23,717 nt of DNA from a virus. Location: positions 1 to 23,717 of IMG/VR virus record IMGVR_UViG_3300028548_002056; one strand, 5' to 3'. Under the pieces are notes generated by a model that had not been told where the DNA came from, ran no database searches, and saw nothing but the letters and a program-made list of their open reading frames with translations. The translations under genes and the position numbers were made by a program. This document shows, in pieces, positions 10,380 through 21,986 of this stretch (positions are counted from its first letter, which is position 1; the number at the start of each line of letters is the position of its first letter).

Positions 10380-12791
10380 TTAATGTAATGTGCTCATAGT
10401 GAACATGTCTTCGCCAATCTCGCTCTCGCAAGGGAATGGCACTGTGATGTTTAACTCGTCGTATGAGTTGTTAAACGTATTTGGTACGTCTTCTAAGATT
10501 GCTTGTACTTCTCGTACGACTGTATCAAACTTATCGCCTTTACCGTCTAACCAAATACAATCGTGTACTGTATTAACTAGTAATATGTCACCATTGAAGC
10601 GGTTATTCTTTAACATATAGCGGAATACTAGACCTAACATGGTCTGTACTATCTCTCCGCCAAAGCCTTGGACCGGATAGTTCTTACGTTCTGTAGGACT
10701 AAACCCAGTATATTTTCCATGCTTGTGCATAAACGTTGGAGTAATGCCCTCTCTCCATATGTACCTAGTCCCTGTAGGCGAGTCCCAATGAGCTTCTCCT
10801 TGCTTGAACGCAACTCCTTCAATAAAGAGGTTATTGCTCGTAGGTATTCTATTAGAGTTGATTTCTGCTTCAAGCATTTGATCAAACTGTTTGACAAGAG
10901 GATACATTCTCTCCTCAAGTGCAATAAGGGTATCGACTTCACTTCTAGGCATACCTGTCTCGTTAGCGATAGTATCTGCCCCAGCTCCATATGCTCTTTG
11001 GAATGAAAAGATTTTAGCACCTGTTCTTCCTCCCTTATAGTAGGCAATCAGTTCTTTAACTAGAACTGTACCTGTTGATAGAGTGAACGTGTCTTTGTCG
11101 GTCGCTAGTTTAAACCATGCTTTAAAGCGGTCGTTCTCCTCTTTGTCTTTTGTAATGTGACAGTAGTCCCATACAAACTCGTATGGTTCTCCTAACTTAG
11201 CTGATAGACGTTTACAATGGAAATCCACCTTGTCACGTAAATCTTGACATAGTTGTGGGTCACCTGTTAGTACACCTTGTACAACTACTTCCAGTTGGCT
11301 GTAGTCAATCTCAGCCATTCTTCCACCATCGTTAAATCTACTGCGGAACATCTTCTTGACGTTTGATGTGTCTCCACGAGGGACATTCTGTAGGTTTGGG
11401 TCGGATGATGATAGTCGTGATGTAACTGTACTTGTGTGGTTAAGCTTGTGGTGTATGAGACCTTGCTCGTCAACGAGAGTAAGCATACCTTTACGCTTAC
11501 CTTTCTTATCTTCTTTCCAATAGTATGTTCCCAAGTCTTTATCAAGACCTGTTCTCTTAACAAGTGCGTCAGTGAAGGGTAAACCTCTTTCAGCAAGCTT
11601 AGATATAATCTTAGCTCCTGTACTGTACAAGGGCTGGTCGTAAGCATCAGTCTGTTCCGATTTCCATGCTGGATGGGCCTTAGTATATCCATCAAACTTA
11701 AAGTAGTGCGGTTTTTGTGCGCCCTTAGGTTTATCGTGATTGTCGGTCTTAACGTTGCGGAACTTACCTTCGCCCGCGCGTTTTCCAGATAGGTAACTAT
11801 CTTGGACTTTGTAGTGTTTGTCGCCATGTTTAAATTGTCCTTGTCCCTCTGGTACTTCTAAGACATATAGCTCACCTGCTTTCTTACACTCACTAGGAGG
11901 TATAGGCAGGTTGTCGAATAGAGGGTGTTTATCAGTCTTCTGTGTGTAGAGTACGTTTCCATTATCATCGGTATGTGCTACCCATTTACTGTACTTCACT
12001 ACACCACCAAAGATGATACATGATTTGTGTGTGTTACTAGCCCAGTTAAATGCTAACTCAGGTGGTAACTCTGGTATAAATTCTTCTAGTGTTGCTGTTG
12101 CCTGTGCTAGTTCAATGATAAGGTCATTACGTAATTCCTCACCTACTTCACTGTCACAGAATACACCGTTGAACTCCATCTCACATGTAGCGAGTAGACC
12201 ATCCATACGGTACTTTAACATTGTTCTAAATTCTTTAGGGTGATTCGCTTTCATCTCTTTGATTTGACCAGCGAATATCAACCATGTGTTCATTATGTCA
12301 CCCACAATCTCACCATTACCAACTAGGTAATCATGGAGTAGGTCTGGTGGTATCTGACTGGTTAAGTAACCATCTTCCCACATTTCTTTAACTGCATCAA
12401 TCTTCGTACCACCACCATACTTGGTAGCAATGTCGTTCATTGAGCACATTTGTACGTCTTGAGTGTGACCACCCATTAGATACTCTGCGTATTGTCCACA
12501 GTATATAGTAGCACCACGAGCCAAGGCTGCTTGGAATGATGGCTGATGCCATACCCATAGAGCGTCGAACTTAGTGTTAAATCCGTTAATGATGTCGCCA
12601 GCTTCTAGCTTATCAAATTGTTCTTTCATAACGTCTGCTCTGTGCCACTCTTCGTAACGTTCTGAGCATACCTTACCACCGTTCCATGACCAACCTGCTT
12701 CTACTACGTAGTTACGTGGGTCAAAAGGGCTTGCTAATCTTTTATTTAGTCGGTGGTTCTCCACCTCGAGGTCAAACGTGAGTACTTTCAT
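10380..12791 (-). CDS. DNA polymerase, family A with 3'-5' exonuclease
   Basis: Replicative polymerase. The 803 residues hold a DEDD proofreading domain: Exo I FDLEVE (D7, E9), Exo II NGFNTKFDALW (D76), Exo III GDIMNT (D165). The polymerase part has the DPNLQNVPRG block (464-473), motif A AEIDYSQLE (D496), the O-helix R589-K593-F597-Y601 in GRTGAKIFSFQRAYGAG, and motif C VNTVHDCIW (H743, D744). Residues about 262-390 are an extension rich in Lys and Gly between the exonuclease and the palm, where T7 has its thioredoxin-binding loop; many phage enzymes of this type carry a similar block. AGGGA precedes the ATG, which overlaps the upstream gene by 20 bases. Confidence 0.97.
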   Translation of the reverse strand: MKVLTFDLEVENHRLNKRLASPFDPRNYVVEAGWSWNGGKVCSERYEEWHRADVMKEQFDKLEAGDIINGFNTKFDALWVWHQPSFQAALARGATIYCGQYAEYLMGGHTQDVQMCSMNDIATKYGGGTKIDAVKEMWEDGYLTSQIPPDLLHDYLVGNGEIVGDIMNTWLIFAGQIKEMKANHPKEFRTMLKYRMDGLLATCEMEFNGVFCDSEVGEELRNDLIIELAQATATLEEFIPELPPELAFNWASNTHKSCIIFGGVVKYSKWVAHTDDNGNVLYTQKTDKHPLFDNLPIPPSECKKAGELYVLEVPEGQGQFKHGDKHYKVQDSYLSGKRAGEGKFRNVKTDNHDKPKGAQKPHYFKFDGYTKAHPAWKSEQTDAYDQPLYSTGAKIISKLAERGLPFTDALVKRTGLDKDLGTYYWKEDKKGKRKGMLTLVDEQGLIHHKLNHTSTVTSRLSSSDPNLQNVPRGDTSNVKKMFRSRFNDGGRMAEIDYSQLEVVVQGVLTGDPQLCQDLRDKVDFHCKRLSAKLGEPYEFVWDYCHITKDKEENDRFKAWFKLATDKDTFTLSTGTVLVKELIAYYKGGRTGAKIFSFQRAYGAGADTIANETGMPRSEVDTLIALEERMYPLVKQFDQMLEAEINSNRIPTSNNLFIEGVAFKQGEAHWDSPTGTRYIWREGITPTFMHKHGKYTGFSPTERKNYPVQGFGGEIVQTMLGLVFRYMLKNNRFNGDILLVNTVHDCIWLDGKGDKFDTVVREVQAILEDVPNTFNNSYDELNITVPFPCESEIGEDMFTMSTLH

Positions 12792-13005
12792 TTAGTAAGT
12801 TCCCTAGATCTTCTACCTTAGCATCTCTAAAGTTAGTATGTTTAAATTCTAGACCTAAATCTGATGGATCCATATCGTGTATACTTCTACCTTCTACTGT
12901 CTCTTCTACTTGTAGAATTAGTACTGTCTTACGCGACATGAATGGTTTATACGGTCGGTATCTCTTGCGGCCTGTTAGTACTTTACTATCTATCTCTACG
13001 CTCAT
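12772..13005 (-). CDS. small hypothetical protein upstream of DNA polymerase (77 aa)
   Basis: Not recognised. It has a basic N-terminus (TGRKRYRPYKPFMSRK), a short strand TVLILQVEE and an acidic, helical C-terminus (DAKVEDLGNLLNES). AGAGG is 7-9 bases before the ATG. Its ATG overlaps the stop of the 53-residue gene as ATGA and its 3' end overlaps the polymerase start by 20 bases, so it is likely co-translated with polymerase. A polymerase-associated role is possible from position only. Confidence 0.75.
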   Translation of the reverse strand: MSVEIDSKVLTGRKRYRPYKPFMSRKTVLILQVEETVEGRSIHDMDPSDLGLEFKHTNFRDAKVEDLGNLLNESTHV

Positions 13006-13163
13006 CGTAAGTCCTCTAACTCTGCTTGTAGCTTATTGTTACGTCGTATCTGTTTACGAGCGGCATCCCGCCAGAACTCTATCTGTCTATCTTTTTGCTG
13101 CATTAAGTCACCTAATTGTTGTAGGTTGTTAATAGATTTCCTAAGTTCTTTAGTTGTTATCAT
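13002..13163 (-). CDS. small coiled-coil protein (53 aa)
   Basis: A 53-codon frame with a strong ribosome site (GAGGAGG, 7 bases before ATG 13163) and an ATGA overlap with the next gene. The product is charged and helical throughout (TTKELRKSINNLQQLGDLMQ, then KLQAELEDLR) with a heptad-like spacing of Leu/Ile, so it probably forms a coiled coil. It is the first gene after the large non-coding stretch and so may be the first gene of the polymerase operon. Function unknown. Confidence 0.75.
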   Translation of the reverse strand: MITTKELRKSINNLQQLGDLMQQKDRQIEFWRDAARKQIRRNNKLQAELEDLR

Positions 13164-13188
13164 CGTAACCCTCCTCAGGTTGTGTGTT

Positions 13189-13336
13189 TAATTAAGTTTG
13201 TATACTGCGGCTTATCCACGCTCGCTTGCGGGCTGTACCCGGGCGTGACGTTTCAAACTGCTCGCATCATTATATGTATTGACCCTCATAGTTACCTCAG
13301 TCGTGGCCTTTGACTTCTAATATACAAACGTAATTA
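13189..13336. repeat. 16-bp inverted repeat flanking a 116-base interior
   Basis: Arms at 13189-13204 and 13321-13336 are reverse complements in 15 of 16 positions. The interior contains a GC-rich section (13218-13248) that can pair with itself (CACGC with GCGTG) and, on the minus strand, a TATAAT hexamer around 13266-13276. The arms could close a long RNA stem or mark the ends of a unit. It lies 26 bases upstream of the first gene of the polymerase operon. Confidence 0.7.
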
Positions 13337-13727
13337 GTGAGCAGCGTTTAACGTCATACTCAGGACGGGTGATCAACACCATGCGCTTGTTAAAGTCTTA
13401 AGTGACCTAGTTCTTCAAGCAGACCAAACTGGATGTTGTTAACTCAAGTCCCAATGGGTCATGTTACAGTCTGTTCCTTGACTCGTTAGTCCTATGGCCG
13501 ACTAAGGGAAGCCTCAGCTAGTTTATGTGAGCGTTCTGTATTCACAGTTTATTGAGCGTTTAACTTCGCTATAGGATGATTTAAAGTCTCTCCCACTCCT
13601 GACTTACCTGTCGGGTATTATCCCAACAAAGGGATTAGTTGTGGGACTCACACCCACTCTATCAGTTAATCTTTACATGCGCTGACTAGCATGAGTACGT
13701 TTCTCTCCTGTACAAGGAGGGCAGACA

Positions 13728-13768
13728 TTTCATCTATACTAGATGCCTTTTCATCTACACTAGATGCC
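13728..13768. repeat. two tandem palindromes with 21-bp period
   Basis: Two 20-base copies (13728-13747, 13749-13768) differ at one base. Each contains a perfect 6-bp dyad, CATCTA and TAGATG around a 3-base centre (13731-13745 and 13752-13766). The period of 21 bp is two turns of B-DNA, so both dyads face the same side, as in paired operators. As RNA each would be a tight hairpin. No protein that would bind them is identified. Confidence 0.75.
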
Positions 13769-13975
13769 TTTACAGTGCAATCAATTGTTCTAAGTACAGG
13801 TCACCAACGCGGCATGACACTACGTTTTGCGTACCTTCTAGGTTTAACGAGTCTGCTTTGCTCGGTTGTTATAGTCGGTGCTGACACGGTTCTTAACCAA
13901 TCAGGAACCGTTATACTCTAGGTTACCATGTCGAGTAAGTGTTTTTACGACTATTCCCACTCAGGTCGATGTTAG

Positions 13976-14045
13976 TTACTCCCAACGGTCTCGAACCGCC
14001 TAACCCAAAGTTCTTTCGGGGCTACAACCAACTGTAGTAGGAGTG
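13976..14045 (-). tRNA. degenerate tRNA-like element (Phe-like GAA in the loop)
   Basis: On the minus strand the ends pair as CACTCCT with GGGAGTA (6 of 7). A D-arm-like CTAC/GTAG stem with a GG-containing loop follows, then a CCCGA/TTGGG stem around a 7-base loop with GAA in the anticodon place, and a T-arm GGCGG-TTCGAGA-CCGTT. Defects: no T before the anticodon, a variable region of only about 3 bases and irregular 8-9 spacing. It starts 5 bases after the peptidase stop. I read it as a decayed tRNA or a tRNA-like fold at the edge of the non-coding RNA region. Confidence 0.4.
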
Positions 14046-14049
14046 TATT

Positions 14050-14421
14050 CTACCAACGCGCGCCATACCCACGTGTATCCACATGTGTAAACGTCTTGTA
14101 TTTACCAATACCTAGTAAGTTCGCATAAGGCAAACCTTTTAGATATAGATAAACTTGTGTTGGTGATATGCCTTCAACGACAATATCTGCCGCGTCCACA
14201 TCCTCATCCTCACGGATTAGATGCTCTGAGTTCTTAGCCCCGCCTACTTTCTTGTTATGCTTAGCACATCTACAGGTACTGTTAATAGTAACAGGTACGC
14301 CGAAGTGCATTCGCACAGTTTCCACTAGTATTAGTAAAGCTACACTCATTTGGCCTTGTCCACAGCAAGGACACACCATCATGGGGTCTGTTGCTACGGC
14401 GAAGTGTTGTGTACTTCTCAT
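14050..14421 (-). CDS. M15-family peptidase, probable endolysin
   Basis: Likely cuts peptide cross-bridges of peptidoglycan at lysis. The 123 residues match the short phage M15 peptidases: an N-terminal Cys cluster CPCCGQGQMS (17-26), TINSTCRCAKHNKKVGGAKN in the middle, the metal-binding NSEH (H67) and ADI (D79), and the second His in FTHVDTRG (H113). The usual spacing from the first His to the Asp is 7; here it is 12 because of an acidic insert (IREDED). No signal peptide, so it would need a holin to reach the wall. AAGGAG precedes the ATG, which overlaps the MazG-like stop (ATGA). Confidence 0.88.
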   Translation of the reverse strand: MRSTQHFAVATDPMMVCPCCGQGQMSVALLILVETVRMHFGVPVTINSTCRCAKHNKKVGGAKNSEHLIREDEDVDAADIVVEGISPTQVYLYLKGLPYANLLGIGKYKTFTHVDTRGYGARW

Positions 14422-14963
14422 AAGTCTATCTCCTTAATAAACACACCATCATACATACGACCTTTACGGTCTTTTATATCATCGTATGCTACTTGTAAGC
14501 ATTCTCGCAGATTGAGATAGTTCTCGTCAGCTATTGTACCTAGCACTTTGATAATGCCGCTAATACTAGCAGATATACCGTTAACGTTAGGTTTAATACC
14601 CTCATTACCATCACCGAAGTTCATAGATAACTCACTACATCTCTGTATAAGTTTAATGAAGTGCTCTTTGCCTACAGACTCAATTCTATTAAACATAGGT
14701 GGGAACGCTGAATTACGATACAACAAAGGAGATACTACAAGCATACGTAACATGTTACGTTCTGCAATGTTAATCAATACAACTAACATATCTCCAAGAT
14801 CATCCTTAATACACTTACCTTTACAAAGGTTGTCTGATAACTCAGATGCTTCTTGTATAAGTTTATGATATTGGTCAGCATCTGATGCACCTAAGATTAG
14901 ATTCCGGTCATGATGCCATCCTCTAACACTATTTACTAGTTCATGCATAGTCATTATTGACAT
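14418..14963 (-). CDS. MazG-like nucleotide pyrophosphohydrolase with internal repeat
   Basis: Predicted to hydrolyse nucleoside triphosphates or ppGpp-like alarmones; phage MazG-like proteins are thought to steer host nucleotide pools. The start HELVNSVRGWHHDRNLI, the acid cluster IQEASEL and KDDLGDMLVVLINIAER match the first half of the fold, and ECLQVAYDDIKDRKGRMYDG is the usual phage MazG ending. Between them lies an extra block of about 70 residues resembling a degenerate second copy (KLIQRCSEL, then ISASISGIIKVLGTIADEN). Usual length is about 110; here 181. I start at ATG 14963 (AAGGAG, 10 bases upstream); ATG 14954, coupled to the NrdA stop as TAATG, is also possible. Confidence 0.85.
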   Translation of the reverse strand: MSIMTMHELVNSVRGWHHDRNLILGASDADQYHKLIQEASELSDNLCKGKCIKDDLGDMLVVLINIAERNMLRMLVVSPLLYRNSAFPPMFNRIESVGKEHFIKLIQRCSELSMNFGDGNEGIKPNVNGISASISGIIKVLGTIADENYLNLRECLQVAYDDIKDRKGRMYDGVFIKEIDL

Positions 14964-21180: not shown

Positions 21181-21271
21181 CTTCATTATCCTCAAGGAGT
21201 TGACGCATTAGGTCTTGCTCCTCAGGGGTGTATGAAGCAATCATGTCGTTTATGTCTTCTTCAGTTGGCAT
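21155..21271 (-). CDS. small acidic protein upstream of primase (38 aa)
   Basis: A 38-codon frame with an excellent ribosome site (CGGAGG, 7 bases before ATG 21271). The product PTEEDINDMIASYTPEEQDL, then LLEDNEDEELERHC, is highly acidic and helical. It overlaps the primase start by 26 bases and its stop lies within primase, so the two are probably translationally coupled. An acidic peptide next to primase could be a DNA-mimic or partner protein, but nothing proves this. Confidence 0.72.
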   Translation of the reverse strand: MPTEEDINDMIASYTPEEQDLMRQLLEDNEDEELERHC

Positions 21272-21285
21272 TTCTAGCCTCCGTT

Positions 21286-21298
21286 GTTAATGTATTTA
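21286..21298 (-). promoter_or_regulatory. AT-rich direct repeat, copy nearer the primase
   Basis: On the minus strand TAAATACATTAAC, preceded by ACACA, sits 15 bases upstream of the 38-residue gene. The same 13 bases, with similar flanks, occur at 21501-21513. A promoter or RNA-processing signal is possible; the function is inferred only from the repetition and position. Confidence 0.35.
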
Positions 21299-21406
21299 TG
21301 TGTTGTACCCTCATATGCATCAACACCGCTAAGTGAATCATTTCACATATTCCCGTGAGTACTTCGGATAGTAGCCGCTAAGCTGTACAACCATAAATAT
21401 ACTAGT

Positions 21407-21500
21407 TGGTACGGGATGCAGGATTCGAACCTGCCCGTTACACCTAGTGGTGAACACCTCCTTCAATAGAGGCGCGTCTTTCCAGCTCCGCCAATCCCGT
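21407..21500 (-). tRNA. tRNA with long variable arm (Leu/Ser type), CCA encoded
   Basis: Strong tRNA on the minus strand, 94 bases with an encoded ACCA end. Acceptor ACGGGAT/ATCCCGT pairs 7 of 7. A Leu-like D-arm begins TGGCGGAGCTGGAAAG. The variable arm (GTTCACC ACTA GGTGTAAC) is long and well paired with one bulge. The T-arm GCAGG-TTCGAAT-CCTGC is perfect. The anticodon arm is odd: CCTCT and GGAGG leave a 6-base loop ATTGAA, or CCTC and GAGG leave 8 bases. TGA (Ser) is the best anticodon reading, but D-arm and A73 look like Leu. Isotype is therefore uncertain. Confidence 0.85.
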
Positions 21501-21513
21501 GTTAATGTATTTA
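21501..21513 (-). promoter_or_regulatory. AT-rich direct repeat, copy at the tRNA 5' end
   Basis: Second copy of TAAATACATTAAC on the minus strand, directly abutting the first base of the tRNA at 21500. Together with 21286-21298 it brackets the tRNA. The upstream flanks are also alike (ATGC...ACACAT). It may be a promoter or a 5' processing signal. Confidence 0.35.
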
Positions 21514-21863
21514 AATGTGTAGCACCTACGCCTAGGCATGAAGAATCCTCCATGTATCTTTAGTAGCCAACCAAGACTGGTTGCTGCGTTCTACTGTTTC
21601 AATACTACCCTTTAAATATACTAATTTAGCTCCTATTTCCCTGTCACAACGAGGGTTAGACGACAGCAAGTGATGCTATTCTCATGTATAGGTACATCAA
21701 TAGGTTGGCTCCGACCATTCTACTATCATCGTATGGTCTGCGCCCACCTTAGGAGTGGGATTTTACATGTTTGTTATCGTGATGCGATACAGTATACGTA
21801 CACAGCTTCTAACTATTGCAGGTACTACCCAATGACTTACGCTGTGAGGAATTTCACACTTTA
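21514..21863 (-). ncRNA. hairpin-rich non-coding stretch between two tRNA elements
   Basis: About 350 bases without a supported gene. It has consecutive short stems: GACCAT/ATGGTC (about 21713-21738), CCCAC/GTGGG (about 21743-21759), TATCG/CGATA (about 21775-21789) and CTGTC/GACAG (about 21641-21666). Read on the plus strand, the CCCAC/GTGGG stem is followed by ATTTT like a weak terminator. It may be tRNA operon spacer, decayed tRNA genes or a structured RNA. No reading frame has a ribosome site that I can support. Confidence 0.35.
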
Positions 21864-21933
21864 GTTGCTATGCGGGAGTCGAACCGCGCGACCAATCTAT
21901 GCAGACTGCTCTACCTGACTGAGCTAATAGCTA
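21864..21933 (-). tRNA. tRNA-like element with a shortened anticodon arm
   Basis: On the minus strand TAGCTAT pairs with ATAGCAA (6 of 7), with an outer G-C pair possible as in tRNA-His. TA at 8-9 and the D-arm GCTC AGTCAGGTA GAGC are canonical, and the T-loop TTCGACT is present. But only 24 bases separate the D-arm and T-loop where 28 are expected. The anticodon region (AGTCT GCAT AGATT) folds with a 4-base loop and no normal anticodon, and the T-stem is one base out of register. This looks like a decayed tRNA gene or a tRNA mimic. Confidence 0.45.
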
Positions 21934-21942
21934 CCATAAAGC

Positions 21943-21957
21943 ACCCTACTAGAGGGT
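21943..21957 (-). terminator. short hairpin after the 149-aa gene
   Basis: ACCCT/AGGGT stem with a 5-base loop, followed on the minus strand by GCTTTAT. It lies 30 bases after the stop of the 149-residue gene and just before the tRNA-like element. The stem is short and the T-run weak, so it may be a leaky terminator or a processing hairpin. Confidence 0.35.
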
Positions 21958-21986
21958 ACTTGAGTTAGCTACTAAAGATACTAGTC

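Follow-up and report, generated by a model that had tools for sequence, protein, structure and literature searches.

A tRNA-like domain that lacks a normal anticodon arm is found joined to other helices in tmRNA and in the tRNA-like structures of plant RNA viruses. GOLLD (RF02032) is a large non-coding RNA of phages and prophages with a conserved and a variable part, often located near tRNAs, which are sometimes found inside its linker, and ROOL (RF03087) is a large phage RNA encoded near tRNA islands (PMC12286853). The region compared here with these systems, NC1, lies in a window of 23,717 nucleotides (the whole stretch of DNA analysed, from IMG/VR virus record IMGVR_UViG_3300028548_002056), in which all genes are on the minus strand. 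With a probability of about 0.6, the sequence comparisons described below suggest that NC1 encodes, on the minus strand, a large modular structured non-coding RNA, located in the replication operon of a marine phage of Alteromonas type, Foturvirus-like and thus assigned to Autographiviridae, and acting in trans.

The gap and its gene setting

13164-14049, minus (sense) strand: NC1, 886-nt non-coding region, carrier of the proposed RNA; no conserved frame, relatives with a gap at this locus
13169-13176, minus strand: Shine-Dalgarno sequence of ORF 13002-13163, from sequence
13728-13769, minus strand: two tandem palindromic hairpin units of 21 nt each, from repeat search D13

NC1 is flanked by a peptidase M15 gene (14050-14421, minus strand, Pfam PF08291) and by a 53-aa ORF (13002-13163, minus strand), which precedes the DNA polymerase gene (10380-12791). 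The region is non-coding: its sense strand lacks ORFs of 50 aa or longer, the only one of this size inside 13164-14049 being located on the plus strand (13691-13921), no reading frame of NC1 is conserved in the related contig L001, and a 180-nt block conserved between both is interrupted by stop codons in all six frames, in the window as well as in L001. A sequence-only reading of this DNA had found no supportable frame here, an observation that is borne out, and a protein frame conserved in relatives, which it had named as evidence against an RNA, was looked for and is ruled out in the conserved block by these stops.

The hairpin richness to which the same reading had pointed did not hold up as evidence. 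Indeed, the folding of the NC1 sense strand is no stronger than that of shuffled sequences (z = -0.73) whereas that of the antisense strand is (z = -2.55), and sliding 150-nt windows on the sense strand gave a mean z of -0.34 in NC1 versus -0.75 in the polymerase gene. The folding energy of the single sequence was dropped as evidence for NC1, given the lack of signal on the sense strand. An element of the related phage R8W, well supported by covariation, is also ordinary in single-sequence folding, and thus the measure is uninformative here. The three-way junction described at 13591-13646 is without comparative support, because this part aligns poorly with L001.

Known RNA families and tRNA-like elements

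An Rfam 15 scan of the window with lax filters yielded no match to GOLLD or ROOL, and nothing in the gap, up to E = 10. No match in the window exceeded an Rfam gathering score, group I/II introns and other classes included, and its best sub-threshold match lies outside the gap. At gathering and lax thresholds, only tRNA and chance matches were obtained for the window, L001, L024, R8W and the Vibrio phage CHOED. Searched directly, the GOLLD model had no match with E <= 10 in the window and seven related records, and the ROOL model none in the eight records, although this latter search is weak by itself because the ROOL control found nothing either. The membership in GOLLD or ROOL proposed from the letters alone is thus not supported, and the other half of that proposal, a new class, is the better-supported one; no Rfam family matched. 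ARAGORN found no tmRNA in the window, and a limited literature search retrieved no mention of this phage RNA.

NC1 resembles GOLLD in its phage location and tRNA company, with a cloverleaf at its 5' end and tRNA-like elements in related gaps, but its family is made of other modules and has tRNA-like elements with degenerate anticodon arms. GOLLD is characterized by a conserved 3' and a variable 5' region, and the window and L001 keep a 3' block of 180 nt best, but the GOLLD model finds no match in this block, which R8W does not share. The proposed RNA is similar in size to ROOL, but length (264-1306 nt) and module order differ widely within the lineage. GOLLD forms a homo-oligomeric RNA nanocage and ROOL is highly abundant. 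As in tmRNA and the plant virus structures, the NC1 RNA would join a tRNA-like domain to other helices, although, in contrast to the latter, its carrier is a dsDNA phage. By these comparisons, NC1 is GOLLD/ROOL-like in setting; membership in either family is unsupported, while it may resemble them in the way it works.

13977-14044, minus strand: tRNA-like cloverleaf, MFE -23.7 kcal/mol; 4/3000 shuffles; unique in the window
21271-21986, minus strand: NC2, a further non-coding region, lying downstream of a 149-aa ORF; L001's contig has a homologous gap
21863-21934 and 21407-21500, minus strand: tRNA-like elements of NC2, one with 34.2 bits against the Rfam tRNA model

The tRNA-like element noticed at one end of the region in the first inspection was confirmed. 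This cloverleaf starts 5 nt past the stop codon of the M15 gene, at the 5' end of NC1, and shows a 7-bp acceptor stem, GG in the D loop, a UUCGAGA T loop and no CCA; a comparable fold was reached by only 4 of 3000 dinucleotide shuffles, and no other 67-mer on either strand of the window passed the cloverleaf test. It shares the D loop, T loop and acceptor stem with phage tRNA genes, but it was called by neither ARAGORN nor Rfam, lacks CCA and heads a long non-coding stretch. When a functional tRNA is defined as one that is recognised and has a 7-nt anticodon loop, neither the uncalled NC1 element nor the one in NC2, called by ARAGORN without a clean anticodon, qualifies. Further tRNA-like elements, mostly with an abnormal anticodon arm, were found in L024, R8W, G003 and G007, while no cloverleaf was seen by eye at the 5' end of the L001 gap. 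R8W was reported as lacking tRNAs (PMC8228385). In NC2, the element at 21407-21500 is flanked by a 24-nt direct repeat (21280-21303 and 21495-21518, 83%), and the homologous gap in L001's contig has a module in common with L024 and CHOED.

Conservation and covariation among relatives

13838-13866, minus strand: Box 1, ACCGAGCAAAGCAGACTCGTTAAACCTAG, small hairpin CGAG/CTCG plus tail
13368-13408, minus strand: Module A, GUC/GAC mini-helix, AACAAGCGCAU, then hairpin GGUG/CACC
13187-13364, minus strand: conserved 3' block, 87% identity to L001 over 180 columns (E about 1e-57)
13321-13335, minus strand: 5' strand of the closing stem, AATTACGTTTGTATA, pairing with 13190-13204 with one mismatch; kept in L001
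13190-13204, minus strand: 3' strand of the closing stem, TATACAAACTTAATT; the Shine-Dalgarno sequence of the next ORF follows after about 14 nt
13339-13349, minus strand: candidate pseudoknot strand, AAACGCTGCTC, complementary to 13255-13263 with a 2-nt bulge; by eye, window and L001
13255-13263, minus strand: candidate pseudoknot strand, GAGCAGTTT, partner of 13339-13349; by eye, window and L001

According to the polymerase, the nearest relatives are IMG/VR contigs and the Alteromonas phages vB_AmeP_R8W and vB_AspP-H4/4 (genus Foturvirus). Non-coding gaps at the same locus in the window and relatives measure 886, 840, 264, 608, 271, 504 and 374 nt. The polymerase of L001 is 85% identical to that of the window, and its gap of about 840 nt aligns with NC1 in islands only, much of NC1 being unaligned. 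Box 1 is identical in L001 (29/29) and in L024 (28/28); in a scan with a relaxed Box 1 pattern, 12 of 15 matches were discarded as chance, their flanks having no further similarity. Within the 3' block, the comparison of the window with L001 shows only a single double-sided pair, with z = -3.2, and one polymerase control window reaches -2.6. In most relatives, 0-4 nt separate the end of a long stem from the anchor at the next Shine-Dalgarno sequence; per-sequence p-values are 0.002 to 0.3 and the Fisher value is about 1e-5, figures that are indicative only because the sequences are related and one genome is counted at two anchors.

Module A, a hairpin module of 48 nt, is common to the pre-polymerase gaps of the Foturvirus relatives R8W, G004 (H4/4), G003 and G010 and to a non-coding stretch of L024. 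A covariance model built from these five sequences, leaving out the window (model R1), gave one match in the window gap, at 13368-13408 on the right strand (E = 0.0004 over the window). Scores were 26.5 bits in the window and 26.1 bits in L001's contig, in the right gap and strand, compared with a best unrelated score of 12.0 bits in 247 kb of other contigs, and over 420 kb no further new match was found beyond L001's contig. In the seven sequences, 5 of 8 pairs are changed on both sides, including a C-G/G-C exchange in helix 1. The covariation score was reached by none of 500 shuffles, a result that is supportive rather than a probability because the test ignores relatedness (the alignment was, in addition, fitted to the model).

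The strongest example, the alignment of the R8W and G003 elements, comprises 388 columns and 100 consensus pairs, none of them broken and 17 double-sided. RNAalifold compared with column shuffles gave z-scores of -11.5 to -11.9 on the sense and -8.7 on the antisense strand, while five control alignments from the polymerase gene, with similar or somewhat lower identity, ranged from -0.93 to +0.35. Since these controls also hold 4-10 double-sided pairs each, more weight is given to the energy z-score and to a control with slid partners than to the raw count: the 3' domain alone has 8 of 57 pairs double-sided, and 0-1 when partners are slid. By this analysis covariation spans the whole element, which encloses a tRNA-like structure whose acceptor stem is included. 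A model of the 3' domain had no match in the window. Thus, covarying pairs in homologues, proposed at the outset as a check, are present in Module A, in the whole R8W/G003 element and in its 3' domain, and these data, together with the conservation in L001, lend comparative support to the large structured RNA initially suggested.

Two other explanations bear on these data. The several tRNA-like elements with broken anticodon arms, as well as the extent of NC1 that does not align with L001, could indicate a decayed tRNA island, that is, a few degenerate tRNAs plus spacer lacking an RNA function of their own; this is very improbable, considering that the 87% identical block and the identical 29-nt box lie outside the cloverleaf, that Module A covaries and that covariation in the R8W/G003 element takes in the tRNA-like acceptor stem. 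If the region acted as DNA, for instance as a replication origin or a recombination hot spot, with DNA hairpins and decayed tRNA genes, this would explain the location among replication genes, the inverted repeats in the gap and the different gap content of relatives. Nevertheless, we regard such a DNA element as improbable, since the R8W/G003 covariation favours the sense strand (z of -11.9 vs -8.7) and uses G-U pairs, and the modules are oriented like the genes in every genome.

Spread of the modules and proposed role

Across the lineage, the length of the element (264-1306 nt) and the order of its modules are variable, and modules also occur apart from the polymerase gene: Box 1, Module A and module C were found in L024 and/or CHOED. 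In the contig L024, with other neighbouring genes, a non-coding stretch of about 1.3 kb contains Box 1 and an Rfam tRNA match. Conversely, G006 and G008 keep the polymerase in the absence of the RNA, the gap of G008 being 178 nt. Modules B and D were absent from the window, contig scans for the 3' end and for module C gave no match, and a blastn search with the gap as query had no significant match among 50,697 phage records.

Several additional observations were made in these genomes. In G006, a 122-aa ORF (L006 1647-2015), nucleotidyltransferase-like by eye, occupies the RNA's place before the polymerase. CHOED (L068 3824-5316) has 1493 nt without annotated genes and with internal repeats, as well as a weakly covarying 95-nt module 81% identical to L024. 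A 22-nt element with the shape of an H-type pseudoknot, CTGGTRGCGCAGNATAAAACGC, is found in L064 (136-155 and 1305-1324), both times directly ahead of Shine-Dalgarno sequences, and also in G002, G007, G010 and L063. A 32-nt element that could form an H-type pseudoknot, AGACTTTGKCAACTAGTCTATAAAATAAGTTG, is present in R8W (L066, about 14497-14530), G002, G004 and G001, with one stem exchanged in the latter.

The main rival explanation assigns the region a role in cis, as a long, structured 5' leader for the control, insulation or stabilisation of the DNA polymerase mRNA, with the stems abutting the Shine-Dalgarno sequence gating or protecting translation. Both this role and the part ascribed to the stems appear unlikely, though less so than the explanations discussed above. 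The element lies directly before the polymerase gene in nearly all Foturvirus-like relatives having it, and its 3' stem ends within 0-4 nt of the anchor at the next Shine-Dalgarno sequence, as a leader would predict; however, the same modules are found upstream of other genes (NC2, L024 and CHOED), G006 and G008 dispense with the RNA, and size and module order vary. The occurrence of modules in other contexts and the loss of the RNA in these two genomes argue for an accessory RNA.

In the trans-acting RNA that we propose, which would not be an obligatory leader of the polymerase gene, the transcript would be produced together with the operon; host RNase P/Z would then trim it at the tRNA-like element, and RNase III might do so at the long closing stem. 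The RNA set free would work in trans, its most probable role being that of an accessory RNA scaffold or a decoy, in the niche of GOLLD and ROOL. On comparative grounds, NC1 most likely represents a previously uncatalogued family of modular, large phage RNAs containing tRNA-like elements, located beside DNA-replication genes. More tentatively, and with odds somewhat below even, it could belong to a new class of large, modular phage RNAs that act in trans and are built from structured modules that can be exchanged. Such a class would be shared by Autographiviridae with at least one Vibrio phage unrelated to them, and its members might form particles made only of RNA or serve as decoys for host tRNA- or ribosome-binding factors. 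The modules of such a class may include pseudoknot-like elements, a covarying hairpin and tRNA-like domains lacking a working anticodon arm.

Very large phage RNAs, such as GOLLD and ROOL, are known in small number only. The family described here is present in R8W, a cultured lytic Alteromonas phage, so that expression, processing and the phenotype of a deletion are directly testable in the laboratory, and the covarying tRNA-like element inside the RNA offers a handle on why such RNAs accompany tRNAs.
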